This document shows, piece by piece, positions 12,252 to 55,012 of a stretch of 64,000 nt of DNA (the stretch's first letter is position 1; every line of letters begins with the position of its first letter). The DNA is taken from the NCBI GenBank assembly GCA_024641335.1, contig JAHEDG010000004.1, forward strand, positions 1 through 64,000. Direction: 5' to 3'. The stretch is from Candidatus Zixiibacteriota bacterium. Lineage in GTDB: Bacteria > Zixibacteria > MSB-5A5 > UBA10806. The position numbers and the translations under genes were made by a program. The notes under the pieces were generated by a model. That model had not been told where the DNA came from. It did not search any database and saw only the letters and a list, made by a program, of their open reading frames with translations.

Positions 12252-15200
12252 TTACTTCAGTAATGTCATCCTTTTTGTTTCAGCCCCCTGGGGCCAAGAT
12301 AACCTGTAAAAATAAACTCCGGAGGGTATATCCCCGGCGTTCCAGATAACTTTGTGCGAACCAGCCTGTAATTCATTGTCTACCAACGTAGTAATCTTCT
12401 GGCCCAAAACATTGAAGATCTCCAGTTGGACATTCCCGGCTGACGGAATCGAAAACTCGATGGCAGCGGAAGCGTTAAATGGATTGGGATAGCTTTGAGC
12501 CAGCGAAAAACCGCGCGCCAGTTTGCTTTCATCTTCAGTACCGGTGAAATACATAGAGCCGGTAGTAAATTTGAGCGCCCTTCCGTTGGTGATATTCGCG
12601 GCCCCGGCAGCATAGTTGTTGTTGAAAATATAACCGATTCCGTCCCGTCTATCCGGAGAGCAGATGCCAGCCGACATGGAATAGGGGCTGGAAACCGAAT
12701 TGTACTGGAATAGTATCTCATTATCGCCGGTCAATGTCGGCCAGGCGGTCAGATCGAGGAAGATGATTTCGAAGGTCTGATACCTGAATACATCTTCGTC
12801 ATAAGCGTTATTCCAGCCGACAATAAACCGTCCGTTATCGACATCGTGATAATAGTAAATCCTCAATCCGCTTTGTTTGAAATCATCCCAGAACGCGGCC
12901 ACCATTCCGGGGGCGTTCTGCGGCGCCGGAATAGGAGTATTATACCAGGCGTTCCAGTCTGTCCCTCCGAGGGCCACAAAACCATTATCACAAATGGTCA
13001 ACCGCTCGAACTCCTCGCCGTAATATGATACTGTAAAGGGTAGAGTGATCAGCCTGACCTCATCATCCCCTATCTGCACATATTGCCAGTTCTGGGTATC
13101 GATCGGTATCCAGTCGAACTCCGGATGATAGGTATAGGAGGTATCGGTATTGTCGAAGCAGTAATACCCGTAGTCGTCGGGCCCGATCGGATCGTGGCTG
13201 GAAATCTCGCCAACCGGCAGACTGAATGCGGTAGTGACTACCTGAGGGCCGATTCCGGTCAACTCCAGGGTGAAGTTGATAACATGACCTACATAGATAA
13301 AGTCGTCAGCCCGCAAGATAAAGGTATTGTTTTGGTTATCGAATGACTCGCCGGGAGGACAGTTACCGAAAGCCGCCAGAGAATCCATGATCGTTACCTG
13401 GTCGTCGGATGTTCTTAGAATTCCCGCGCCGCTTTCTATTCCCAGATCCCCGATATTCGAAAGAGAAATTCTCAGCTCGCAAATTTCGCCCGGATCAATC
13501 CTTCCGTCGCCGGCATCGATAACAGTAACGCTGTCGACAGAAAATTCAGCCGCTTCCACATTCTCGTGGATAATGGCGTTCCAGCTATGTCCTTCGTTGT
13601 CGGTTATGACCAGTATCAAACCGCTCCTGGCCATATTGGCCGCGTCGGGATGAACATTCACCAGATAAGGTTGATTGCTGGTCCCCACTCCTTCCGGAGC
13701 TATATCTCCGAAACCGGCGGAGTCTCTCATGACTTCGATATACTCGTTGTTACTGGAAAGAACCGCGGTAACATTATGAGCGGTCTCCGTTAGTCCGTAA
13801 TTTTTCAGTTCCAGAGAGAGTTCTATTGTTTCCGACGGATTCAGAACGCTGTTACCGTTGCCCGACGATTCCCCACTGGCGTCATCGTCGATAATATGCG
13901 ACAGATACCCTATGGTAACGCTGTTGCTGTAATATTCCGCGGATCCTTCATAAGGAATATATCCGGGAGCTACCGCGGTTACCCGCATACTCCCTTCGGT
14001 CAGGGCAGTAGCGTCAAAATGAATCTCACCGTTGGCGGCCGTGAATCCTCCGTCATAAATTTCCTCGCCCTTCCAGATATTGACATAAGCTCTTTCGAGA
14101 GGACTGCCCAGCCCGTCGGTTACTGTCACGTCGAAATGATTCTGCCCCATTTCAACCGAATCGGGGTGATCCGCTATCATCTGCATGGGAATATCTTTCC
14201 AGCAATTCAGTTCCGGATCGCCCAAGATATTATAGCTGTTGAAATACAGCTCCACCTGTCCGTTAACTCCCCGATCGCTGGGGAACGAGTAATAGAGATT
14301 CATTTTGCCCATGAGTAATCCCTGAGCCAGAGTGGTCGATCCTTCGTAAAACCAACCCCAGTAGATACCGGCGTCGATCGAGTTGGTCCAAACTGTGTGA
14401 GCATAATGATTGGTATTGCCCATAAAACCGGCCCCGCCCTTATTGGCGGATCTGATCCAGGTTTCTCCGAAACATTCCGGAGTCCAGCCATCGTTGAAAT
14501 CGCCGGTTCCGCAGACAATAGATGTCATGATCGGATACCTGGGACCGTTGGAAAGCTGCGAAATACTCGAGGAAACGAACCGGGGATATGTCCAGCCGGT
14601 GGCGTCGCCGTAGCCTCTATAATTCACGAAAGAGACGCCGCTGTTGATGCTGGAAATTACCCGTGACGCCGGAATATTTCCACTGCTATCGAACATCGTG
14701 TCGACAAAAGTATACCCGTTGTTCATCATAAACTCGCGGCAGAGCATCTTGGTAATTCGAGGGCTGACAAAATAGCCGTCGTCTCCCCCTGATGATACAG
14801 AGGCCCGGTGATACCATTCGGTATCCCCCATGTAGGGAGTTCTTTCATAGGCGAACAACTTGGCAATATACTGATTCAGGTGGGTGACGCTGTAAACCGA
14901 GATTCGTCCTATGAGGACTTCGGGGAAATAGTCATTGCCTTCGATAAATGTGTAATAGTTATCCGATTCGATATCTCCCGAACCGTGCGGATTGGAATAA
15001 TTGCGGGTGGGGATACCGTAGTTGTTAGGCATGGTCACGTCACCCACAATGGCGATGTAATCCGGTTTCACGTCACAGGTATCGAATAACGCGACTATAT
15101 AATTTTTAATATTGACATAAGTCGGATTAGAACCGATATCGCCTTTGGCGATCAAACGGACGCTAAAGCCTCTGGTCTTGTTCCATTCGATCAGCGGATC

Positions 15201-15926
15201 AAGATACTCGAGATAAGCGTCGGGGTAGATTATCCAGTAGGCTCCCCGGGTAATCTCGATCGGATCGAAAACCAGCGGATTATCGAGGATAGATTTGTAT
15301 ATGGGGGAGAAAGCTTCGGAGATCTTACCGTCGTAACGGGTCATTTTGGAGCCCGAATGAGTTATTTCTATCTCTATATTGTCGTAAACCAGGAGAGTCG
15401 AATTTTCAGGGTCGTACCTTACCGGCGATATCGTTACCGAATACAATCTTAAATCTCTCATTATCCCGGCGTTCTCACCGACGACCAGATTAGCCTGAAA
15501 ATTCATGGAAAAATCGTTGTCGGAACTGCGGTAGGAAGCTAAAGCCTCATCGTCCGCCGGCGCCAGATTGAATCTTTCGAATTCCTTATAACTCGAACCG
15601 AGGATCTTAACTGTCGGCTCGGAATCGAACGGGACGGCGATAATCCGGGTAATGGTCGGCAGAAGAACGTCTTGCGGCCCGAGGTAAGCTCCTCTCGACA
15701 TTTCGAAATCGTCCGGAAGAGATACCGAATATTCGATTTCGCCGTTAACAGCGTTCTGCTCATATTTCAATTCGGCCAAATCTATGCTCAGTATTGTGCG
15801 GCCTGGTTCCTGAACAGACACCGTTACGCCGGAATTTCCAGCATTGAGAATAAGGGCCTCTTTTTCGGCTCCCAGAGCCGTCGAGCATAAAAAGAACAAA
15901 CCTGCCGCTAATGCGCGAAAATTCAT
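12252..15926 (-). CDS. Large secreted gingipain-like C25 protein lacking the canonical catalytic His
   Basis: 1224 residues: signal peptide 1-19; gingipain-type propeptide about 25-210; C25 fold from about 225 (ARG-AYWIIYPDAYLEYL, DYIAIVGDVTMP) to 590; Ig-like domain; two CARDB-type modules (each with SGNGNSVLNPSETIELSLELKNYG-like seeds); a nidogen-like beta domain beginning GPDDYGYYCFDNTDTSY; sorting tail SYPNPFNASA...RMTLLK. The nucleophile region is kept (VCGTGDF, C472), but the His expected in YxGHG is Tyr (NYRGYGDATGW, Y439), 33 residues upstream. The paralogue at 20253 shares this layout and has Trp there. It is therefore either an inactive protease homologue or uses another His, perhaps in NHYAHT. 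AGGAGG precedes the ATG. Confidence 0.9.
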   Translation of the reverse strand: MNFRALAAGLFFLCSTALGAEKEALILNAGNSGVTVSVQEPGRTILSIDLAELKYEQNAVNGEIEYSVSLPDDFEMSRGAYLGPQDVLLPTITRIIAVPFDSEPTVKILGSSYKEFERFNLAPADDEALASYRSSDNDFSMNFQANLVVGENAGIMRDLRLYSVTISPVRYDPENSTLLVYDNIEIEITHSGSKMTRYDGKISEAFSPIYKSILDNPLVFDPIEITRGAYWIIYPDAYLEYLDPLIEWNKTRGFSVRLIAKGDIGSNPTYVNIKNYIVALFDTCDVKPDYIAIVGDVTMPNNYGIPTRNYSNPHGSGDIESDNYYTFIEGNDYFPEVLIGRISVYSVTHLNQYIAKLFAYERTPYMGDTEWYHRASVSSGGDDGYFVSPRITKMLCREFMMNNGYTFVDTMFDSSGNIPASRVISSINSGVSFVNYRGYGDATGWTYPRFVSSSISQLSNGPRYPIMTSIVCGTGDFNDGWTPECFGETWIRSANKGGAGFMGNTNHYAHTVWTNSIDAGIYWGWFYEGSTTLAQGLLMGKMNLYYSFPSDRGVNGQVELYFNSYNILGDPELNCWKDIPMQMIADHPDSVEMGQNHFDVTVTDGLGSPLERAYVNIWKGEEIYDGGFTAANGEIHFDATALTEGSMRVTAVAPGYIPYEGSAEYYSNSVTIGYLSHIIDDDASGESSGNGNSVLNPSETIELSLELKNYGLTETAHNVTAVLSSNNEYIEVMRDSAGFGDIAPEGVGTSNQPYLVNVHPDAANMARSGLILVITDNEGHSWNAIIHENVEAAEFSVDSVTVIDAGDGRIDPGEICELRISLSNIGDLGIESGAGILRTSDDQVTIMDSLAAFGNCPPGESFDNQNNTFILRADDFIYVGHVINFTLELTGIGPQVVTTAFSLPVGEISSHDPIGPDDYGYYCFDNTDTSYTYHPEFDWIPIDTQNWQYVQIGDDEVRLITLPFTVSYYGEEFERLTICDNGFVALGGTDWNAWYNTPIPAPQNAPGMVAAFWDDFKQSGLRIYYYHDVDNGRFIVGWNNAYDEDVFRYQTFEIIFLDLTAWPTLTGDNEILFQYNSVSSPYSMSAGICSPDRRDGIGYIFNNNYAAGAANITNGRALKFTTGSMYFTGTEDESKLARGFSLAQSYPNPFNASAAIEFSIPSAGNVQLEIFNVLGQKITTLVDNELQAGSHKVIWNAGDIPSGVYFYRLSWPQGAETKRMTLLK

Positions 15927-35499: not shown

Positions 35500-36456
35500 T
35501 TAGAAAAGTGATAATTTTACATATTTTTTCGGATGCTTCCTGATATCGATCATCAGGCTGTCAAGAGAATCCAGAGTGGAAAACAGCTTTGTATAGACCT
35601 CGTCGTTATTGACCATTTGGCCCAATGTCCCCTGGCCGGAATCCATTTTTTCCAGAATCCTCGTCATCAGGGTAAGCAGACTGTCGGTGTGATCGTAAAT
35701 TTCGTTTTCGGTAGCTAATTTCCCGAGGCTTCCCTGTCCGCCGTTGATATTGGTCATGAACAGCGCTGACTGATCGAGCAGAGCGGTCAGTCGATCATAA
35801 AAAACAGGATCATTGATAAATTCCGCGAAGGAACCGTCACCCTTTTGAATCTTTCTGGTGATATCTGTCCAGAGTACCAGGAGAGAATCGAGATTGGTGT
35901 ACATCCTGGGATCGTTGATGACCTGCGCCAGGGTACCGTCCCCGTGGTTTATTTTCCAGGTTATCTCTTTGGCGTTTTGGGCGGTTAGTTTCACATCCGT
36001 AAGCATGTCGCCGCTTTCAGAGATTATATCGTCGATCTGGTAAGCCTCGATTGTGGCCACATATTCTCCCTGAACCAATTGAACCTGTTCGGGCGAACCG
36101 ACCGAGATATCGACAGTCCTGTCTCCCAAAAGCCCTTTACTTCCCAGTCTGGCGATAGAATCTTTTTTTATTCTGGGAAAACTTTTCGCTTCGACCGACA
36201 TGGAGACAATTACGAATTTATCTTCGCCGTCGGGAGAGAAACCTATTTTATCAACTGCCCCCACTTTCACACCACCCAGGCGAACCGGGGCTCCGATTGT
36301 CAATCCTTCTACATTGGCGAATTTGGCTTTGAGCTCGTATTTCTCCTTGAAAAAACCTTCTTCGCCGCCGATTACAAAAAACGCGCTGAAAATAATGATA
36401 AAACCCAAGGCTATCAGGGCGCCGACCCTGATCTCTTTGCCCACGTTACTTTTCAT
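35500..36456 (-). CDS. mlaD: MCE-domain lipid-transport protein (MlaD-like)
   Basis: I choose the ATG at 36456, 4 bp after the MlaF stop; the frame extends upstream but overlaps mlaF. 318 residues: an N-terminal membrane anchor (RVGALIALGFIIIFSAFFVIGG), one MCE domain (KAKFANVEGLTIGAPVRLGGVKVGAV...DRTVDISVG), then a long helical region with three to four repeats of the form GDGTLAQVINDP / GQGSLGKLATEN / GQGTLGQMVNND. MCE proteins form hexameric rings carrying phospholipid between inner and outer membranes. It is the last gene of an MlaE-MlaF-MlaD operon. Confidence 0.93.
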   Translation of the reverse strand: MKSNVGKEIRVGALIALGFIIIFSAFFVIGGEEGFFKEKYELKAKFANVEGLTIGAPVRLGGVKVGAVDKIGFSPDGEDKFVIVSMSVEAKSFPRIKKDSIARLGSKGLLGDRTVDISVGSPEQVQLVQGEYVATIEAYQIDDIISESGDMLTDVKLTAQNAKEITWKINHGDGTLAQVINDPRMYTNLDSLLVLWTDITRKIQKGDGSFAEFINDPVFYDRLTALLDQSALFMTNINGGQGSLGKLATENEIYDHTDSLLTLMTRILEKMDSGQGTLGQMVNNDEVYTKLFSTLDSLDSLMIDIRKHPKKYVKLSLF

Positions 36457-36460
36457 GATA

Positions 36461-37192
36461 TCAAACCGCCTTTCCGCCGGACCGGAATGTCCTGACAAAC
36501 TCCAACTGGCTTTGTTCGAACTCGTCCCAGGTTCCTTCGAAATAAATTTCTCCCTCTTTCAGCAAGACGATCTTCTGAGCCACGAATGAGGCGCTCTCCA
36601 GATCGTGAGTGACTACGATAACAGTCGAGCCGGTATGCTCCTGAACTCTTTTTATAAGCTCGTTAATGGTCTGTGCCGTGATCGGATCCAGGCCTGTGGT
36701 CGGCTCATCGAAAAAGATATAATCCGGTTCGGTGACCATCGCCCTGGCCAGGGCGATTCTTTTTTGCATTCCGCCGGAGAGCTCCGACGGCAGCAGCGCT
36801 TCGGTCCCCGACATCTCGACAAAACTGAGTTTTTCCTCGACTCTCAACCGGATATCCATTTCGCTCATTTTGGTATGTTCGCGCAGAGAGTAGGCCACGT
36901 TTTCGAAAACCGTCATGGAATCGAACAGCGCCGATCCCTGGAAAAGCATGCCCATTCTGCGCCGAATATCCATCATCTGGGATTCGGAAAAATCGGTGGT
37001 ATCGATACCATCCACCAGTATCCGGCCGGAATCCAGGGGCATAAGACGCAGGATCAGTTTTAGCAGCACGCTTTTGCCTGTGCCGGACCGTCCCAATACT
37101 ACCGTGGTTTTGCCATTTTCGAACACGACATCGAGTCGTTTGAGCACCGTCTTATCGCCGAAGTCTTTGGAAAGCTCAAAGATCTCTATCAT
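36461..37192 (-). CDS. mlaF: ABC transporter ATP-binding protein for lipid transport (MlaF-like)
   Basis: 243 residues with Walker A GRSGTGKS, Q-loop LFQGSALFDSMTVFENV (a Mla/Ttg2 hallmark), signature LSGGMQKRIALARA, Walker B YIFFDEPTTGLDP and switch His in VVTHD. It powers the lipid permease encoded just upstream. Its start overlaps the permease stop by 4 bp. Confidence 0.95.
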   Translation of the reverse strand: MIEIFELSKDFGDKTVLKRLDVVFENGKTTVVLGRSGTGKSVLLKLILRLMPLDSGRILVDGIDTTDFSESQMMDIRRRMGMLFQGSALFDSMTVFENVAYSLREHTKMSEMDIRLRVEEKLSFVEMSGTEALLPSELSGGMQKRIALARAMVTEPDYIFFDEPTTGLDPITAQTINELIKRVQEHTGSTVIVVTHDLESASFVAQKIVLLKEGEIYFEGTWDEFEQSQLEFVRTFRSGGKAV

Positions 37193-37977
37193 AACGGCCC
37201 CGAAATAAGGAAAAAGATCTTGGTCATTACAAAGTTAAAAACAAATATCGAAATAGACGACAGAACGACCGATAAAGTGGTCGAGCTGCCCACTCCTTTA
37301 GTGCCGCCGGTGGTGCTCATCCCCAGGAAGCAGCCGATGGTTCCGATCAGCCCGGCGAATACGACAGGCTTGATCAATCCCGATACCAGATCGTCCATGA
37401 GAAGAGCTTCCAGCACCGTGGTTTTATATAGCTCATAACCGACATTAAGATTGGCGGTAGCGATAAGCAATCCTCCCAATATACCCAGAACATCGGCCAC
37501 CGCCACCAGAAGCGGCATCATGATCAATAGCGCGACTATGCGGGTGAGAACCAGTTTTTTGTACGGATCGGTGGCCATAGCCCGCATGGCGTCGATTTGA
37601 TCGGTCACCTTCATCGAGCCTAATTCGGCTGTGATACCGGCTCCGACTCTGCCGGCCACGACCAAGGCTGTGAGAACCGGCCCGAGTTCCCGTACCAGTG
37701 AGAGCGCCACCACTGTGCCGATATACGATTTGGCCCCAAACCTGCTCATCTCCATACCAGTCTGAAAAGCCATGACCATACCGGTAAAAATCCCGGTCAG
37801 AGAGACGATGGATAGAGATCTGTATCCTATCTGGTAGAGCTGTTCCAGAACTTCATTGAAATAGTATGGCCCCCGCGCGGCCGCCTTAATTACTGTCCCT
37901 AAAAACATGGCGTACTTATAAAGATGTGTCAGGAATTCGCCGGCCTTCGTCTCTATCAGAATATCGTAAATCTTCAT
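37189..37977 (-). CDS. mlaE: MlaE-family ABC lipid permease
   Basis: 262 residues, with an amphipathic N terminus and about five membrane helices. Family marks: SLTGIFTGMVMAFQTG, RELGPVLTALVVAGRVGAGITAELG, the coupling helix MKVTDQIDAMRAMATDPYK, and the C-terminal TTGGTKGVGSSTT. It is the inner-membrane permease of the Mla/MCE system and the first gene of the operon. No mlaC or mlaB is adjacent. Confidence 0.95.
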   Translation of the reverse strand: MKIYDILIETKAGEFLTHLYKYAMFLGTVIKAAARGPYYFNEVLEQLYQIGYRSLSIVSLTGIFTGMVMAFQTGMEMSRFGAKSYIGTVVALSLVRELGPVLTALVVAGRVGAGITAELGSMKVTDQIDAMRAMATDPYKKLVLTRIVALLIMMPLLVAVADVLGILGGLLIATANLNVGYELYKTTVLEALLMDDLVSGLIKPVVFAGLIGTIGCFLGMSTTGGTKGVGSSTTLSVVLSSISIFVFNFVMTKIFFLISGPL

Positions 37978-41927: not shown

Positions 41928-43184
41928 TCACGTTGACCGCCTGATACTATCCAGGAATCTCGATCGTAAGGTATCACTCATCAGAGCTTTTTTCATCGGC
42001 GGCAGCTTCAAGAATCCGCCGACCAGCCCGCGCATAAACGTATGCCCGGCGTTTTGCGGATTATTAAAGATAAGATTTTGCAGCGAGCCTCGTTCCAGCG
42101 CGGAGAGGATTACTTTCTCGAACGTATCGGCCGGATGCAGGACCCGCTGTTCGCGTTTGATCAGCTTCATCGATTCGGTCGAGCAATCCAGGGCGCAGAC
42201 TCCACAGCCCATACATATTGAATCGTCGACAATCGGGCCGCTACCAGGCTTCATCTTTATGGCGTTTACGGGGCAGATCTCGGCGCAGTCGCCGCATTCG
42301 GCGCAGGTTTCGGTGTTGCTTCTGGCGATGAAGCTCGATGTAACGATGGCGTTGGCATAGCCGAAGCTGCTGACTCCCAAAAGGACATTGCAGCAGCACC
42401 CGCAACAAAAGCAGATGAAACCTACATTCTTTTGAACATTATCGGCGTTGAGCACCAGGCGAAGTTCTCTCGACCGGGCCAGGTTTTCCAGCATTTGGGA
42501 TTTTTCCACCTCTTCGGCGAATCCGTGGCGGATCATGTAATCGGCGGCGGAATCGAACGAGGCGCACATGCTTAACGGGGCATGGCATTGACGGTTCTCG
42601 GCGTGCAGCTTTTCGTGACGACAAGAACAGATCCCGACCGCGAACTTTTGGGTATTCTCTATAATAGCCGTGGCTTTCTCGTAATCGAGGACCTCGACAT
42701 ACTCCGACATATCTATGGTCTCTTCATGGGGTATCGTTCGAAGAGGCATCACTTTCTCACCATGACCGAGATTGGCTTTATAGAACGAATTCTTATCCTG
42801 CAGGTAATCGTGAAAAAGCCTGGCCCACTCCTTAGTATTCAATTCCCCCCGGGTTCTCATCATGGTGAATTCGAATATGCCGATGACCAGCGGCGAAACG
42901 GTGTAGCGAAACCCCTTGCCATACCAGGCGTCGATCATCAGGCCTTTGTCGCAGAGGCGGTCGAGCAGGTTCTTCAGCTTCGCCGACTCGATCCCGGTAA
43001 CCCGCTGAATATACTTGAGCGTATTGAGGCCGTAGGGCATTTTGACAATCAGATCGGCTTCGTCTTCGGTATAGAGCTCTTTCAGGATGGAGTGGAACGC
43101 GCTGTTCCACGGAGTCCGGGCGCCCAGATTGTCGATTTTTTTGCCCAGCTTCTTATATATATCCTTGCCGACCATGTGTCCCAT
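41928..43184 (-). CDS. [4Fe-4S] ferredoxin-type protein with N-terminal winged helix
   Basis: 418 residues, cytoplasmic. Residues about 30-105 look like a winged helix (EADLIVKMPYG, TLKYIQRVTGIESAKLKNLLDRLCDKGLMID). The middle has two unusual cysteine clusters: GICSCRHEK followed 12 residues on by CHAPLSMC, and FICFCCGCCCN. The C-terminal part is a classic double ferredoxin (CAECGDCAEICPVNAI and CMGCGVCALDCSTESM). Thus several iron-sulfur clusters are expected. The family occurs in anaerobes and may act in electron transfer tied to sensing. AGGTGAG precedes the ATG. No linked redox partner is visible in the window. Confidence 0.88.
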   Translation of the reverse strand: MGHMVGKDIYKKLGKKIDNLGARTPWNSAFHSILKELYTEDEADLIVKMPYGLNTLKYIQRVTGIESAKLKNLLDRLCDKGLMIDAWYGKGFRYTVSPLVIGIFEFTMMRTRGELNTKEWARLFHDYLQDKNSFYKANLGHGEKVMPLRTIPHEETIDMSEYVEVLDYEKATAIIENTQKFAVGICSCRHEKLHAENRQCHAPLSMCASFDSAADYMIRHGFAEEVEKSQMLENLARSRELRLVLNADNVQKNVGFICFCCGCCCNVLLGVSSFGYANAIVTSSFIARSNTETCAECGDCAEICPVNAIKMKPGSGPIVDDSICMGCGVCALDCSTESMKLIKREQRVLHPADTFEKVILSALERGSLQNLIFNNPQNAGHTFMRGLVGGFLKLPPMKKALMSDTLRSRFLDSIRRST

Positions 43185-43355: not shown

Positions 43356-44792
43356 TTACCTCACCAACGCCATACGTTTGATGATGACATTATCGCCGGA
43401 GGTCAATCTATAGAAATATGAACCGCTGGAAACATCCCGGCCGCCAATATTCACTCCGTTCCAGACGAATGAGTGTTCGCCGCCTTCCAACGCGCCGTCG
43501 ATCAGACGATTCACCAGCCGTCCGCGGATATCAAATATATCCAAACGGGCATGAGCGGTTTCAGGCATATAGACTTTTATCCGAGTCGATGAATTGAACG
43601 GGTTGGGGTAAGCCTGATACAACTCGACCGTTCCCGGCCTGGGAGGCTCTCCGTCGACGGATGTCATATTGAGTATATCCTCGAGGGCGATTATAAAACC
43701 GGTCATCTCTTCCATAGTGCCGGTGGAAACCCTGATATGATGGGTCATACCCCATCCGGTTCGAACATAAAATCCTCTGGTTGCCAGGGCACCGCGCACG
43801 CCTTCAGCGTAAGAGCCGACATTAACCATAAAAAAACTGGCTTCCGAATGAATATAACTCAGATTCATCCGATCAAACTCTCCGAAGCAGTAGCTTTTGG
43901 CCTGATTGGCCAGAGCGATCGTATCGCTTCTGTGTTGTATGCTGCGCAAGGCCTCTTTAGCCGCTTCCAGCGACGAGCGGGATACCATGCAGATCATTCT
44001 ATAACCCATCATCGTATTCATGATTTCATTGTATCCGACCGCGTAACCGATACGCGCCCCCGCCAGACCGTAGACTTTGCTAAAAGTTTTGATGACTACC
44101 ACTTTCTTACCGGATCTGACCAGTTCGACAGCCGACGGATAATCGGGTGTGGAGATATAGTCGTAGTAGGCTTCGTCGATTATGGTAACTACATGGGATG
44201 GCAGATCGTCGACAAAAGCAGAGAGATCGCCCGGATCGATTACGGTAGCCGTCGGATTATTGGGATTGGTGATACAGACCGCGGTGGTATTGTTGTCTAC
44301 CCTGCCCATCATAGCGTCGAGATCGACTTTGTGGTCGCTGCCGAGGTTGGCATACCGAACTGACGAGCCGTATAATTCGGCGTCAGCCGCGAACTGGCCG
44401 TAAGACGGGCTGGGAACAACCACGTTGGAGCCCGGTCCGCATAATATCATAGCGCAAAAGCGTAATAGCTGGGTAGCCCCGGAACCACAGAGAATCCGAC
44501 CGGAGGAAACGTCATGATACGCCGATAGGCGGGCCACCAGCGAATCGGAGAACCAGTCGGAATATCGATGAGCCATCGAGGCTTCGGCCTCCATCGCTTC
44601 AATGACCGACGACGCCGGCCCCAGCGGGTTTTCATTGAAACATAACCGGCCGACATAATCGGTGATAATATCCTGCCCAGGGAATGTGTCGGCAATCGCT
44701 TTTCGGTCAAAACCGATTAATGATAAAGCCGCCGCCCCGGTAATCGTATTTATGAAGTTTCGACGGGATAGATCGTTAGAATCGTTATCCAT
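43356..44792 (-). CDS. Tat-exported HisC-like PLP aminotransferase with C-terminal sorting domain
   Basis: 478 residues. The N terminus carries a twin-arginine signal (LSRRNFINTITGAAALSLIG). Residues about 40-375 are a class I/II fold-type I aminotransferase of the histidinol-phosphate group: NENPLGPASSV, LCGSGATQLLRF, CITNPNNPTAT, IIDEAYYDY and the PLP lysine in KTFSKVYGLAGARIGY. The last 85 residues are a sorting domain (AYPNPFNSST...RMALVR). An exported PLP enzyme would have to fold with its cofactor in the cytoplasm, which explains Tat use. The substrate is unknown; being outside the cell, histidine biosynthesis is improbable. AAGGAG precedes the ATG. Confidence 0.92.
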   Translation of the reverse strand: MDNDSNDLSRRNFINTITGAAALSLIGFDRKAIADTFPGQDIITDYVGRLCFNENPLGPASSVIEAMEAEASMAHRYSDWFSDSLVARLSAYHDVSSGRILCGSGATQLLRFCAMILCGPGSNVVVPSPSYGQFAADAELYGSSVRYANLGSDHKVDLDAMMGRVDNNTTAVCITNPNNPTATVIDPGDLSAFVDDLPSHVVTIIDEAYYDYISTPDYPSAVELVRSGKKVVVIKTFSKVYGLAGARIGYAVGYNEIMNTMMGYRMICMVSRSSLEAAKEALRSIQHRSDTIALANQAKSYCFGEFDRMNLSYIHSEASFFMVNVGSYAEGVRGALATRGFYVRTGWGMTHHIRVSTGTMEEMTGFIIALEDILNMTSVDGEPPRPGTVELYQAYPNPFNSSTRIKVYMPETAHARLDIFDIRGRLVNRLIDGALEGGEHSFVWNGVNIGGRDVSSGSYFYRLTSGDNVIIKRMALVR

Positions 44793-45052
44793 AACCGACT
44801 CCTTGGAAGTTTCAGGGCCGTTTCGTAAACTACACTAGTTATAAGAAACCTATTTTTTGTATTTTGTCAAGATCCATTCGAGCTTCATCGGATAAACAGG
44901 CAGCAAAGCATACCATAAGCATTTAACATATTGGCAGTTATGCCTTTTCCCTGGAGGGAGCCGGCTATTTACCGCGGAAAAATCAATGTAATATCTGTAA
45001 AACCATCCATTTTTTGCTTTTGTTTTCGGGATTTTATCCTATTTTGATCATG

Positions 45053-45097: not shown

Positions 45098-45135
45098 TAT
45101 GAATAAGTGGATTTTAGCTTAATATGGAGGAATCG

Positions 45136-48100
45136 ATGAGAAAAGCGGCTAACAGGATCACCTTGGCGGGAATATTAATTGGCGCGTTTTTCATATCCGC
45201 GTCTGCCGATCAAACCGTGCGGTTTTCCGATATCAAATCCGGCACGGCCATACTTAACCAGGACCGGAACGGTCTTACCATAGCTGTCGATATAGGCTCT
45301 ATTGAATTTCGCTCGCTGATTATTCCCGATGGAGAATTCACGGCCGTCGGCATCGATGGTTTTGCCCGCTCTCAGAGGATCGGGGAGCCGAATCTGCCTA
45401 TGATCAATAAGACTTTGACCATACCATTGGGATGCGAATTAAGCGCGGAAGTTCTGGAATTTGAGATAGAAGAGATCGATCTGGCCGATTACGGCCTGAC
45501 CTCCCCTATAGTTCCGGTTCAGCCGTCGCTCTCCAAATCGGAGAACCCCGGCTCCGTACCTTTCGAATATAACCGGGCGATATACAACCAAAACGGCTAT
45601 TACGGTCTCCCCCTGACGGAAACGTCGGAGATAGGTATTATGAGAGCTTTAAAACTGGGAGAAATCTCTGTGGCCCCGGTTGAATATAATCCTGAGTCGA
45701 ACAGTCTGCGTGTATATAAGAGGATGGTGATCCGGGTCAACTATCTTCATCCGGATTGGTCCGCCACTACGGAAGCCCGCATTCGCTATTTCTCCCCGTT
45801 TTACGAGCCGGTATATGATCAGATTTTCAATTATGAACCTCTTCCCCCCACCATACTCGACGACCTGGTGACCTACCCGGTTAAATATGTGATTATAGCC
45901 GACCGTATGTTTGAAGCCCAATTGCAGCCGTTCATCGCCTGGAAGGTGAAAAAGGGATTTCAGGTGATAACCGGGTATACCGACGATATCGGCGGTTCCA
46001 ACACCGCCATCAAGGCGTATATCAGGGGACTCTATGAAAACAGCAATCCTCCCGATGATCCCGCGCCGTCCTTCGTGCTGTTAGTAGGGGACCATCAACA
46101 GATCCCAGCGTTTGATTATTCCGATCATATTTCCGATCTCGATTTCTGCGAATTCACCGGCGATCATAATCCGGAAATATATTACGGCCGGTTCTCCGCG
46201 CAGAATACGTCGCAATTGCAGCCTCAGATAGATAAGACTCTCGAATATGAGCAGTATCTGATGCCCGATCCGTCATATCTGGGCAATGTCACCATGATCG
46301 CAGGAGTGGATCCCACCTACGCTCCGACTCACGGCAACGGCCAGATAAACTATGGAACTAATATTTATTTTAATTCGGAGCACGGCTTATATTCAAACAC
46401 ATGGCTCTACCCGGCATCGAATGATCCGGGCGCGGCGGCGGCTATCAGGGCGACTGTCAACCAGGGCGTAGGATTCATCAACTATACCGCCCATGGCTCT
46501 CATGACGGCTGGGCCAATCCCGAATTCAGTTCCTCCCAGGTCGGGGCATTGACCAATGTCCATAAATACACGACAGCCGTCGGCAACTGCTGTCTGACCT
46601 GCACATTCGGAACGGATTATTCGACACCGTGCGCCGGAGAGGTCTGGCTTCAATCCGCCGACAAAGGAGCGGTTGGTTATATCGGCGGCTCCAACTCATC
46701 CTATTGGGATGAGGATTATTATTGGGGAGTCGGCTACGGGCCCATCATGGGCCAGGGACCGTCTTACGAGCAAACCGGGCTGGGAGCGTACGACGGCGTG
46801 TTTCATGACCACGCCGAACCAGTCAGCCAGCGCTACGTGGTCAATGACGCCCTGGTCTTTTGCGGAAACATGGCAGTACAGGAATCCGGCAGCAGCTTGA
46901 TAAACTACTACTGGGAAATATATCATCTTATGGGCGATCCATCGGTCTCGACATACCTCGGAGTTCCGACAGCCAACACTGTTCAGCAACCCGAAACCAT
47001 AGTCCTGGGCGCCAACACAGTTCATATATCCGCCGATCCGGCTTCATATATAGGACTCTCCAAGAACGGCGTGTTTCACGGCGGCGCCTATGTAGATGAA
47101 TCCGGAGTTGTAGATATGTCCATTACGCCGTTCGATGTTCCCGGCACGGCGGATATAGTGATTACCGGACAGAATAAAGAACCATATGTATCCACCATTC
47201 AGGTCATCGCGCCGTCAGGACCGTATGTTATTTTCGATTCCAGCGCGGTTAATGACTCCGTAGGCAATAACAACAACTTGATCGATTTCGGAGAAGCAAT
47301 CCTTCTGGATGTTCAGCTTATGAATGTCGGTCCGGATACCGCCTTTGGGGTCTTCGCCTTGCTTACGACCGAAGACGAATATGTTACTATTACCGATAGT
47401 GTTGAGGTATACGGAACGATCGCGGGGGATTTAGCCTTTGTCAATATCGAGAACGCTTATGGTTTTGATGTCGCTGTCGGCGTTCCGGACAGACACAGCA
47501 TTTCGTTTTCTCTCACTGTAAGCGACGCTAACGATGAGACCTGGGGTTCCAATTTCACTTTGCAGGCTCATGCCCCGGTGATCAATTTTGTCGAACTCTC
47601 CATTGACGACAACTCCGGCAACGGCAACGGCATATTCGAAGCGGGCGAGACCGCCGAGATGACCGTTACGCTGATCAACTCAGGCTCATCATCGGCCTCT
47701 TCAGTAACAGGCGTCTTATCTTCCAATGATGAATATGTAACTATTTCCGACGCCAATGGTTCGTTCGGCGATCTGGACTCGAACGGCGGCCGCGGCGACA
47801 ACTCAACCGATGTTTATATCATTACCGCTCACAACGATTATCCTCCCGGACATTCGGTACTGTTCGGCCTGGCTCTGCAATCCGTAGACGGATATGCGCA
47901 AAACCTGCAGTTCATTCTCAGAGCCGTCGAATCGTTTGAATATGACGATGGCGGCTGGGTCGGCGATGGCAGCTGGCAATGGGGCGAGCCGGGGTCGGGC
48001 CCCGGTTCGGCGTATGACGGCACCAAAGTATGGGCGACAAACCTGACCGAGGAATATCCCGACAACGCGGATGACAGACTCTATACGAAATATTTAACAG

Positions 48101-49794
48101 TAGAAGATTCCACCGCCTCTATCGGTTTCTACCATTGGTACAGCTTCGAATCCGGATGGGACGGCGGCAATCTATGCGTCTCCTCCGACGCCGGGGCCAG
48201 CTGGGAGATTATTGTTCCGGAAGGCGGCTATCCCGATCAGGATATTATCGGATTGGATAACGAACCCGGCTTTTCCAGCGAATCCGGAGGCTGGATGGAA
48301 TCATCATTTTCATTGGCCGATTACGAGGGCATGGCAATCAGGCTAAGATTCCGTATGGGGTCTGATGGATCGGTTACGGATGACGGGTGGTACATCGACG
48401 CGGTAAATATTACCGGGGTCAGAACATGGAGCGCCGATTCCGCCGAACTGTCTGTCTCTCCTATTTCATTTAATATCACTCTCGATCACGGAAATTCCAC
48501 TCAGAGCCCCCTGACAATCTCCAACAACGGCAGCGGACTACTTGTTTATGGAATAACGCCGATTACCATCGGTACTTTAACGGAATCCCACGACGAACTT
48601 CCGGCCATTCGTAGGGACGATGGCGGCAAACATATTTTTCATGAAAGAACAGGGGAGTTTTTAACAGTTACCTATGACGGGCCGAAAACCGAGGAATCGG
48701 ACGGGGAAACCGGCCCGCCGACAATAACTGATTTCGGCGGTCCTGACGAATTCGGATATATGTGGATCGATTCGAATGAGCCGCAGGGTCCGGATTTCGA
48801 ATGGGTGGATATATCGGTGATCGGCCAACCATTGACTTTTGGCGACGATCAAAACCAGGGACCGTTCGATATGGGCTTTAGCATGCCTTTCTACAACAAT
48901 TATTTCGGCTCAATCCGAATTTGCTCCAACGGATGGCTTTCCTTCACTTCCTCTGCCACCAACTTTTCCAATAGCCCTATCCCGGGCAGTTCCGATCCGA
49001 ACAATCTCATAGCGCCGTTCTGGGATGATTTGAATCCGTCAAATGGCGGTTCCATCTATTTTTATACCAATAGTACAGACAGCGCCATAGTCGAATACTC
49101 CAATATTCCTCGTTTCGCCGGCGGCGGGTCATTGACATTTGAGGTGATCCTTACTTCAGGTGGAGATATCACATTCCAGTATCTCTCGATGGAGGCGGAT
49201 CTATCCTCATGTACTGTCGGAATAGAGAACGGTGACGGTTCTATCGGGCTTCAGGCGGTATACGACGGCACCTACGTGGAAAACAATCTCGCCACTATAT
49301 TCAAGCTCCCGGCTTTCTGGCTATTCCCGGAATTTTCAGGCGGATACGCTTTGCCCGGCCAATCGGTTGATTTAGATATCACGTTCGACGCTACCGAGCT
49401 CAATGACGGCCGATATACCGGTTACCTTAGAATAAACTCCAACGATCCTGATAATCCGGTTTATGCCGTCTACTGCACCCTGACCGTCGGAGAACTGGTC
49501 GATATCGACGATATCGCCGGTAATATACCATCCGCCTTCAGTCTGAATCAGAACTATCCCAATCCGTTCAACCCATCTACGTCAATACAATACGCGCTGC
49601 CTGAACAATCTCATGTCACTATTATCATCTACGATATTCTCGGCAGACAGGTCGAGAGATTGATGGACCGGGTTCAACCGGCCGGTTATTACGATCTGGT
49701 CTGGAACGCCTCCGATAAGCGTTCCGGCGTTTACTTCGCCAGGCTGGAAACGGAAAGCCATACCGGAACGATAAAAATGGTATTGCTGAAGTAA
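45136..49794 (+). CDS. Large secreted gingipain-like C25 protease with an intact His-Cys pair
   Basis: The ATG at 45136 follows GGAGG; the ATG at 45124 would lie before that site. 1552 residues: signal peptide; propeptide to about 255; C25 domain with catalytic His in NYTAHGSHDGW (H453) and Cys in VGNCCLTC (C485/C486), 32-33 residues apart as in gingipains; Ig-like domain; two CARDB-type modules (SVGNNNNLIDFGEAILL, SGNGNGIFEAGETAEM); a choice-of-anchor/MAM-like jelly roll (about 935-1100); nidogen-like domain (GPDEFGYMWIDSNEPQGP); an ASH-like strand set (RINSNDPDNP); sorting tail NYPNPFNPST...KMVLLK. It should be a secreted endopeptidase; P1 preference cannot be read. Confidence 0.93.
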   Translation: MRKAANRITLAGILIGAFFISASADQTVRFSDIKSGTAILNQDRNGLTIAVDIGSIEFRSLIIPDGEFTAVGIDGFARSQRIGEPNLPMINKTLTIPLGCELSAEVLEFEIEEIDLADYGLTSPIVPVQPSLSKSENPGSVPFEYNRAIYNQNGYYGLPLTETSEIGIMRALKLGEISVAPVEYNPESNSLRVYKRMVIRVNYLHPDWSATTEARIRYFSPFYEPVYDQIFNYEPLPPTILDDLVTYPVKYVIIADRMFEAQLQPFIAWKVKKGFQVITGYTDDIGGSNTAIKAYIRGLYENSNPPDDPAPSFVLLVGDHQQIPAFDYSDHISDLDFCEFTGDHNPEIYYGRFSAQNTSQLQPQIDKTLEYEQYLMPDPSYLGNVTMIAGVDPTYAPTHGNGQINYGTNIYFNSEHGLYSNTWLYPASNDPGAAAAIRATVNQGVGFINYTAHGSHDGWANPEFSSSQVGALTNVHKYTTAVGNCCLTCTFGTDYSTPCAGEVWLQSADKGAVGYIGGSNSSYWDEDYYWGVGYGPIMGQGPSYEQTGLGAYDGVFHDHAEPVSQRYVVNDALVFCGNMAVQESGSSLINYYWEIYHLMGDPSVSTYLGVPTANTVQQPETIVLGANTVHISADPASYIGLSKNGVFHGGAYVDESGVVDMSITPFDVPGTADIVITGQNKEPYVSTIQVIAPSGPYVIFDSSAVNDSVGNNNNLIDFGEAILLDVQLMNVGPDTAFGVFALLTTEDEYVTITDSVEVYGTIAGDLAFVNIENAYGFDVAVGVPDRHSISFSLTVSDANDETWGSNFTLQAHAPVINFVELSIDDNSGNGNGIFEAGETAEMTVTLINSGSSSASSVTGVLSSNDEYVTISDANGSFGDLDSNGGRGDNSTDVYIITAHNDYPPGHSVLFGLALQSVDGYAQNLQFILRAVESFEYDDGGWVGDGSWQWGEPGSGPGSAYDGTKVWATNLTEEYPDNADDRLYTKYLTVEDSTASIGFYHWYSFESGWDGGNLCVSSDAGASWEIIVPEGGYPDQDIIGLDNEPGFSSESGGWMESSFSLADYEGMAIRLRFRMGSDGSVTDDGWYIDAVNITGVRTWSADSAELSVSPISFNITLDHGNSTQSPLTISNNGSGLLVYGITPITIGTLTESHDELPAIRRDDGGKHIFHERTGEFLTVTYDGPKTEESDGETGPPTITDFGGPDEFGYMWIDSNEPQGPDFEWVDISVIGQPLTFGDDQNQGPFDMGFSMPFYNNYFGSIRICSNGWLSFTSSATNFSNSPIPGSSDPNNLIAPFWDDLNPSNGGSIYFYTNSTDSAIVEYSNIPRFAGGGSLTFEVILTSGGDITFQYLSMEADLSSCTVGIENGDGSIGLQAVYDGTYVENNLATIFKLPAFWLFPEFSGGYALPGQSVDLDITFDATELNDGRYTGYLRINSNDPDNPVYAVYCTLTVGELVDIDDIAGNIPSAFSLNQNYPNPFNPSTSIQYALPEQSHVTIIIYDILGRQVERLMDRVQPAGYYDLVWNASDKRSGVYFARLETESHTGTIKMVLLK

Positions 49795-52630: not shown

Positions 52631-55012
52631 TTACTTCAATAGAGTAACCGCTTTTGACTCAACGAAATCACCGGCTTTTAGTTTGTATAAATAGACGCCG
52701 GAAGTAACACCGGAGGCGTTCCAAACAACTTCGTGATATCCGGCAGGTCTTGACTCGTTAAGAATTGTCTCGATTTTCTGACCTGAGAGATTGAATATTT
52801 CTATTTCTACATATGAATCCAGCGGAAGCGCGAATTCTATTATTGTTTGAGAATTAAAGGGGTTAGGATATGCGGAATTCAAAGCGAATGCTTTAGGTAT
52901 CTCCTCATTAGGAGAAGATTGCTTGGGAATCTTCGGGTCCGGTTCCTCCGGGACAACAACGGTAATAGTAACGAACGGAGGTCTCTCGGATTCAGCGTAT
53001 TGATTAAAGGCAACCACTGTATAATCGGCATCGTCAACCCAATATGCGATCGGACCGGGATGCGGCGTTGAAAATTCAATTTCTTCATATTGGTTATTCA
53101 GCGAAGGTAGAGACGCTATAAGGACCCAATCCGGCTCTATGCCATGAACCATTCGATATACAGCATACCCGTCTATTTCGTTTGTTGGACTGGGATTCCA
53201 GGTAATCAAGGGATGAAACGTTGGAGAGGGTGATACAGAGAGATTACTTGGAGGTTGCTGTGTGCCATCGGCCAGAATAGTAAATGCGAATTCGCAGTCC
53301 TGCCAGTGGTTTGGATACCAACCGAGATATGTTAAAGGCGGCCAAGCCCGAAAGCGCCAGACCTCATAAACGTAGGTACGCAGAGTCGCGCCATTTTGGT
53401 CGGAAGAGACGACTTCACATCTGCGAATTCCGTAATTAGGATCGGATGCCGACCAGCCATGCGTAAGACAATCTATGCCCCATACTACAGGCGTTGAAGT
53501 GATTGGGTCAAGCAAAGGTGGCTGGCAATCACAATCCAGATAGTTGAGATCGTAGAGAACTTCGTACCGTTTCACAATATAATTCCAATGGTCGGGAAGA
53601 ACCCGCGTTCCCGAAAATCGCCATTCTTGCCCCGGCGGGTCAGGATTAGCAAGGTACGGCATGGATCCCGCAGCAGTACATGTATAAATTCTGTTAGGTC
53701 GACTAATGAAATCCAATGCGGCCCCGGCATTCACTCGACCATAACCCGTTAGGTTGTCGTAACCCGATGGCGGTATGTCGACCGCAGTATTAACGATAAC
53801 GTATCTAAAATTGCTGCCGAACGCCGGAAGCTGGTTGTAAAAATCGAGGAGTCCTACTAAACCGCTGACATGAGGTGCGGCAAAAGACGTGCCCCCATCG
53901 TAGTTATAAGTGTTGCCAAAACTGGTGGAATAAATCTCGTGAACTGAATTTCCTTCCAGAGCAGTGCCGCCGGGCGCTACTACATCCAGGCCTTCGCCCG
54001 TACTGGAGAAATTGCTTTTTAAGTTTCTGTCTGTGAAGGCCCCTACGCTCAGAACCCAGTCACCGGGATAAGATGCCGGAAATAACGGCGTATCGTTAGC
54101 CTGATTTCCCCGGGCGGCGACGACCAGATGCCCCATATCATGAGCGATGCCGAATTCCTGATGCACTAAACTCTGGAAATCGAGCGATCCCCAACTGTTA
54201 TTCAGAACATCCGCGCCGCCATTTTGAATGGCATCAATCACCGAGTTGTAAATGTGAACTTCATCATAAGTATGGATGTCTTTTGAGTAAATCTAAGAAT
54301 TCCAGGTAACCCCGGCTATACCTTGCGCATTGTTCCCTTGCGCCGCCGCAATTCCGGTTACGAAAGTACCATGGCTGCTGAAATATTCACCCGGGCCATC
54401 GCCCGCAAGCCGGTCGGCATATTCAATATGTCCCTGCACTCCGTTGTCTATGATTCCTATTACTGTTGAGGCGTCGCCCTGAGTAAGATCCCATGCTTCC
54501 GGCGCATCGATATCAGCGTCAGGAACGCTTCCCTGATTCTGCCCGGTGTTATGCATGCCCCACTGTAGCGAAAAAGAGCTGTCATCCGGTTCGAACGCCA
54601 ACTGGCCGGTACCGTTTTTGTCAGAGAAATATACGTCCGGGTAGTCCTTGAGCTTCTCGTTAAGGGCATCTCTTTTCGCGGGATCGGCCAGATAAATTCT
54701 GTAGATTCTATCCAGCCGGGCTTGCCTGGCGAACAATTGCGGAAATCTACTTGACTGAATAATAGTATCGGCCGGATTGAAATCCGGAAAGGCGACTGTT
54801 ATAATCTCGGCGCTGCAGCAAAGAAGCGTCGCTTTCAACGAGTCCGGATTGAAAGTAACTTGACTTACCTGCGCCGATAAAGCGCCCTTAGGCATCTCTA
54901 CAACGTTTTCCGCAAACATGGTGATCACTTCATGGTCGTATGCGTCCGCGAGCAATTGAGGAGAAGTGCCAAAGAATAGGGCGATTGCGAGTAGAATTGA
55001 TCCGCTATTCAT
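52631..55012 (-). pseudogene. Secreted subtilisin-like (S8) protease with sorting domain, interrupted by one in-frame TAG
   Basis: A single frame of 794 codons with one amber at 54293-54295. Upstream (240 codons before the TAG): signal peptide, a propeptide-like part, the catalytic Asp in IGIIDNGVQG and His in SSHGTFVTGIAA, ending GVTWNS. Directly in frame afterwards: IYSKDIHTYDEVHIYNSVID, LNNSWG (oxyanion Asn region), VVAARGNQ, the catalytic Ser in GGTSFAAPHVSGL, an FN3-type domain and the sorting tail AYPNPFNSQT...KAVTLLK. The triad is split over both halves, so neither alone could work. The TAG sits where the family usually has Lys or another residue, one base from AAG or CAG. TAG is an ordinary stop elsewhere here. 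AGGAGG precedes the start. Confidence 0.88.

Follow-up and report, generated by a model that had tools for sequence, protein, structure and literature searches.

The window, a 64,000-nucleotide stretch of Zixibacteria DNA, contains a gene whose three-part architecture is confirmed at the level of sequence: a predicted Tat signal, a PLP aminotransferase and a T9SS tail (Table 1). Sequence also shows the conservation of this architecture, the intact PLP residues, the co-present export machinery and the absence of HisD. The product probably belongs to a conserved aminotransferase family, as yet undescribed, that acts beyond the cytoplasm; it would be exported by Tat and then by T9SS and would transaminate outside the cell. 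We give this reading a probability of about 0.6. As the combination recurs in relatives of several phyla, the three-part protein is a real enzyme family.

Architecture of the gene and its product

A single frame with an ATG start encodes 478 residues. In Pfam, Aminotran_1_2 (PF00155) matches residues 50-366 with 159 bits, Por_Secre_tail (PF18962) residues 395-474 (29.4 bits, cut-off 27), and FlgD_ig (PF13860) residues 402-465 (34 bits, cut-off 27). The AlphaFold model (pLDDT 84) displays a HisC-like domain followed by a seven-stranded C-terminal sandwich, with strands between residues 390 and 476. It is poor across the signal (pLDDT ~40, residues 1-43), which counts against the explanation as a surface enzyme. 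Invariant throughout an alignment of 30 fused proteins are, in the signal, R10, R11 and F13; in the enzyme, N178, D206, Y209, K239, R247 and R354; and in the tail, P396 and P398. FlgD_ig is found in 30/30 fused orthologues and Por_Secre_tail in 25/30. The domains, the motifs and this alignment bear out the first-pass annotation, which had described a HisC-like enzyme with PLP motifs, a twin-arginine signal and a YPNPFN tail.

Table 1. Features of the aminotransferase gene, in window coordinates
Feature	Position	Strand	Basis
Gene: Tat signal, HisC-like aminotransferase and T9SS type A sorting domain (predicted)	43356..44792	(-)	ORF, Pfam domains, orthologues
Ribosome binding site AAGGAG, 6 nt 5' of the ATG	44799..44804	(-)	Read directly in the sequence
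Tat signal peptide (predicted), residues 1-34	44691..44792	(-)	Sequence; R10, R11, F13 invariant in 30/30 orthologues
Twin-arginine motif S-R-R-N-F, residues 9-13	44754..44768	(-)	Sequence, orthologue alignment
Fold-type-I PLP aminotransferase domain, residues 45-380	43653..44660	(-)	PF00155, 159 bits; predicted structure resembles HisC crystal structures
K239 codon, PLP Schiff-base lysine (TFSKVYGLAGARIG)	44076..44078	(-)	Invariant in 30/30 fused proteins and all compared HisC
T9SS type A sorting domain, residues 388-478, predicted seven-stranded beta-sandwich	43359..43631	(-)	PF18962 and PF13860 above cut-off; AlphaFold strands 390-476
YPNPFN motif of the sorting domain, residues 395-400	43593..43610	(-)	Sequence; P396 and P398 invariant in 30/30

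Scans for promoters and terminators returned matches not above chance. The adjoining gene (41928-43184, minus strand) encodes a 418-residue protein with a C-terminal 4Fe-4S cluster pair and a Cys-rich CSCRHEK / CFCCGCCC region, and an MlaD-ABC-MlaE phospholipid transport cluster lies at 35500-37977 (minus strand). No gene neighbourhood is conserved beyond close relatives and no neighbour hints at a substrate, which also counts against a surface enzyme. Some Marinimicrobia have a fatty-acid desaturase gene beside the aminotransferase gene; in WOR-3, its vicinity contains genes for a rhodanese, an aspartyl protease and a beta-propeller protein.

The catalytic domain

The window protein possesses the complete residue set of fold-type-I (class I/II) PLP enzymes: the Schiff-base Lys (K239), the PLP-contacting Asp and Tyr (D206, Y209), the Asn (N178), the PLP-phosphate Arg (R247) and the carboxylate Arg (R354). 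The predicted structure best matches the HisC-type aminotransferases 3ffh, 3ly1 and 4r2n, and the profiles point to the same type. It thus resembles HisC (TIGR01141; PDB 3ffh, 3ly1) in its fold and in all PLP-contacting residues, which are likewise retained with respect to cytoplasmic HisC of the same phylum. It differs from the latter at T107 (D in HisC), Q133 (G), H287 (F), M322 (L) and W347-x-M349 (F-x). Among NCBIfam models, TIGR01141 ranks first, with 221-222 bits, under its cut-off of 276.55. The designation "HisC-like" of the first-pass annotation therefore stands for the fold, but not for an assignment as HisC, given this score, the different pocket and a genome without HisD.

The enzyme may be exported and yet be a PLP lyase, decarboxylase or cyclase that performs no transamination and needs no second extracellular substrate, such as a cysteine-type beta-lyase resembling alliinase, or a relative of CobD or of GntC/VioD. 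The CobD, GntC and VioD models match 30/30 members, an Alliinase_C match, although weak, appears in 7/30, and the positions T107, Q133, H287 and W347-x-M349 are unlike those of HisC. Against this, the top models and top structures are transaminases, and PtaA, the nearest functionally known exported relative, transaminates. We consider such a non-transaminase unlikely.

The export signal and the sorting domain

Judged from its motif, the N-terminus MDNDSNDLSRRNFINTITGAAALSLIGFDRKAIADTF is a Tat-type signal. The leader, MDNDSNDLSRRNFINTITGAAALSLIGFDRKAIA↓DTF, is made of the twin-arginine motif, a weakly hydrophobic h-region, the basic pair R30-K31 and the predicted cleavage site AIA↓D. These are the features of a Tat substrate: SRRNF fits (S/T)RRxF, the h-region is moderate (mean hydropathy of 1.61 among 37 family members), basic residues precede AIA↓D, and the host encodes TatC (216 bits). 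This Tat-type motif takes the place of the Sec signal peptide described for known T9SS cargo. Among the 89 ORFs with a T9SS tail in the same genome, a hydrophobic leader can be recognised in 74, and the aminotransferase alone bears an (S/T)RRxF motif ahead of it. Six other automatic Tat flags in this set correspond to MRR at a Sec-type start or to RR outside the leader; one of them, L242, is ambiguous as to the Tat motif.

At the other end of the protein, the characters are those of T9SS type A cargo: Por_Secre_tail lies at the extreme C-terminus, over its cut-off, and the host possesses the outer-membrane machinery, with SprA (678 bits), PorV (210 bits) and PorU (709 bits) all over cut-off. 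On contig 89, a PorU gene and a PorV gene lie close together. SprA matches were obtained in 25/25 tested hosts of fused proteins, 22 of them over cut-off.

The T9SS cargo set of this organism is very rich, with ~90 tail proteins (89 ORFs) in a 2.86 Mb genome. In the window, two gingipain-type C25 peptidases combine a C25 propeptide with a T9SS tail, at 12252-15926 (minus strand) and at 45124-49794 (plus strand), the latter being divergent from the aminotransferase gene. A subtilase (S8) with a T9SS tail, at 52631-55012 (minus strand), is interrupted by one in-frame TAG at 54295-54293 (...GVTWNS*IYSKD...), and is either a pseudogene or the product of a sequencing error.

The tails do not share one history. 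Those of WOR-3, Marinimicrobia, Krumholzibacteria, bin29 and one divergent Zixibacterium show mutual medians of ~87-104 bits, versus ~50-66 bits to ordinary T9SS tails; being closer to each other than to ordinary tails, they appear co-inherited. The window gene has its tail in common with closely related Zixibacteria (up to 142 bits), and the tails of Eisenbacteria and of L114 form a third type. A single ancestral tail is not supported, as there are at least two unrelated types. On one Tat-aminotransferase lineage, L085-L089 and L114 differ in tail type from L082/L084/L088 and the window gene, which suggests tail swapping or repeated gain. The lineage thus kept its Tat signal and enzyme through a replacement or a repeated gain of the tail; this suggests that selection acts on the sorting function of the tail.

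The C-terminal domain might instead be an Ig-like module serving assembly or binding in the periplasm, where the enzyme would stay like PtaA and which T9SS export would not involve. Domains of the FlgD_ig type are general Ig modules, the closest relatives lacking the tail are predicted to be periplasmic, and tails like that of the window gene are no nearer to other fused tails than to ordinary ones. Set against these points are the score over the T9SS sorting-domain cut-off, the resemblance to the tails of ~90 other proteins of the same genome, and the SprA, PorV and PorU that this genome encodes. A periplasmic location is, in our view, distinctly improbable.

Distribution and phylogeny of the family

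The family scan, run over 84,980 species genomes, used a tail-less alignment of signal and enzyme as its query. Its two peptide patterns both lie within the enzyme, so that the RLC[YF]NENP signature is selected for, and neither the signal nor the tail is. In the closer group (L082-L118), every complete locus has an RR leader, the enzyme and a tail. The hosts are Zixibacteria, Eisenbacteria, WOR-3/Stahlbacteria, Krumholzibacteria, Marinimicrobia, one Gemmatimonadota MAG and unassigned bins. A record labelled Chloroflexi (L111) carries a fused aminotransferase of the Marinimicrobia type, which falls among those of Marinimicrobia; this MAG probably bears the wrong label. The farther group (L119-L160) has no tail and is found in Bacteroidota, Gemmatimonadota, Rhodanobacter, Acidobacteria and a few Bacillota; most of its members have an RR leader, with none in Bacillota. 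The search for the same architecture in related genomes, proposed in the first-pass annotation, thus found it conserved across several phyla, and its reservation that homologues may be cytoplasmic is answered by nearest relatives that mostly bear predicted twin-arginine leaders. No viral relatives were found.

In a draw of 199 Marinimicrobia-group genomes, 11/11 strong matches lie in frames of 474-501 codons, with room enough for a tail. The occurrence is patchy, in 6/132 genomes of the own phylum and 11/199 of the Marinimicrobia draw, which counts against a surface enzyme. The enzyme and the tail are under purifying selection in close pairs, with dN/dS below 0.3 wherever computable; the signal also stays below 0.3 in all computed close pairs save one (0.53, few sites).

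The maximum-likelihood tree unites the fused proteins in one clade (support 95/95), beside tail-less relatives with an RR leader and apart from cytoplasmic HisC (93/81). This topology bears on the reading of the protein as a cytoplasmic HisC of histidine biosynthesis with irrelevant N- and C-terminal extras, for which TIGR01141, as top NCBIfam model, would speak. HisD was not found in the own genome, rated 100% complete, although the model detects it in 13/14 controls, so the organism may be a histidine auxotroph. With the HisC score under its cut-off and HisD absent, histidine synthesis is not the task of the enzyme. As the RR pair is also invariant across phyla, a cytoplasmic HisC is very improbable.

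Related Zixibacteria genomes harbor the same three-part protein at 59, 57, 56, 53 and 41% identity. Some carry more than one copy, and two of these genomes are scaffolded with N runs that break up further copies. The junction of enzyme and tail at 43600-43700, where the first-pass annotation allowed for an assembly join, is genuine. Although the genome of the window is a draft in 98 contigs, an artefact of assembly or binning is practically ruled out and chance excluded, since independent assemblies (many MAGs) carry the same fusion in full-length three-part homologues at 35-59% identity, and base composition has no step at 43600-43700.

Comparison with known systems

The closest functional parallel is PtaA, the periplasmic pyoverdine transaminase of Pseudomonas (NF051461), which is exported folded with PLP via Tat (PMC6206403). 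Like PtaA and the PRK09105 subfamily (NF006580), the window protein appears as a HisC-like PLP transaminase; its sequence has a Tat-type signal and a HisC-like fold. Both models align from the N-terminal leader on, covering residues 6-7 to 367-375 of the window protein. They stop where its C-terminal tail starts, and the scores are below the cut-offs (192 bits against 500 for NF051461, 201 against 444 for NF006580). Unlike that of PtaA, the window gene has no siderophore context. For PvdN, a Tat-exported periplasmic PLP enzyme, folding and PLP binding have to precede translocation by Tat (PMC6206403). The window protein resembles it as a PLP enzyme with a putative Tat signal; PvdN catalyses another reaction, and no T9SS tail is described for it.

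With T9SS type A cargo (PF18962, TIGR04183), such as gingipains, the protein shares the C-terminal seven-stranded sorting domain and a host with PorU, PorV and SprA. It departs from known cargo, described as using Sec, by its Tat-type N-terminal signal and by being a cofactor enzyme. Reviews describe T9SS cargo as Sec-dependent (PMC9127263; PMC9251779), which counts against the surface-enzyme explanation; T9SS transport of folded cargo is also described (PMC9251779). In the open-access literature, no description was found of a T9SS aminotransferase with a Tat signal, of a combination of Tat and T9SS, or of T9SS in Zixibacteria. As far as found, the conserved Tat-to-T9SS route is undescribed, whereas Tat-exported transaminases are already known. 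The view that an exported cofactor enzyme is unusual must be narrowed accordingly: PtaA is a precedent for a Tat-exported HisC-like transaminase, and the T9SS step is the unusual part.

Proposed working and significance

The route, final location, reaction and substrate that we infer are as follows. By analogy with PtaA and PvdN, the enzyme would fold and load PLP in the cytoplasm and, once folded, cross the inner membrane through Tat, the signal peptide being lost after Ala34. The C-terminal beta-sandwich would then be recognised, and the enzyme, still folded, would traverse the outer membrane by the SprA pore together with PorV. PorU would cut off the tail, and the enzyme would be released or anchored at the surface. 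Outside, it would most likely perform ping-pong PLP transamination, much as PtaA does in the periplasm, on an alpha-amino acid or on a compound whose alpha-amino acid group is exposed; the carboxylate-binding Arg354 is kept. Because transamination regenerates PLP, no cofactor supply would be necessary outside. The many secreted T9SS proteases alongside could free substrates for the aminotransferase.

On balance, we lean towards a family in FCB-related phyla whose cofactor-loaded enzymes pass serially from Tat to T9SS, keep PLP bound across both membranes and transfer amino groups outside the cell. With a conserved T9SS cargo bearing a Tat signal in several phyla, the acceptance by T9SS of pre-folded, cofactor-bound and perhaps dimeric Tat cargo becomes directly testable. 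If this reading is true, amino-group transfer, thought to be intracellular or at most periplasmic, takes place outside the cell, and the family points to extracellular amino-acid transamination in uncultivated lineages, namely marine Marinimicrobia, WOR-3 and Zixibacteria.
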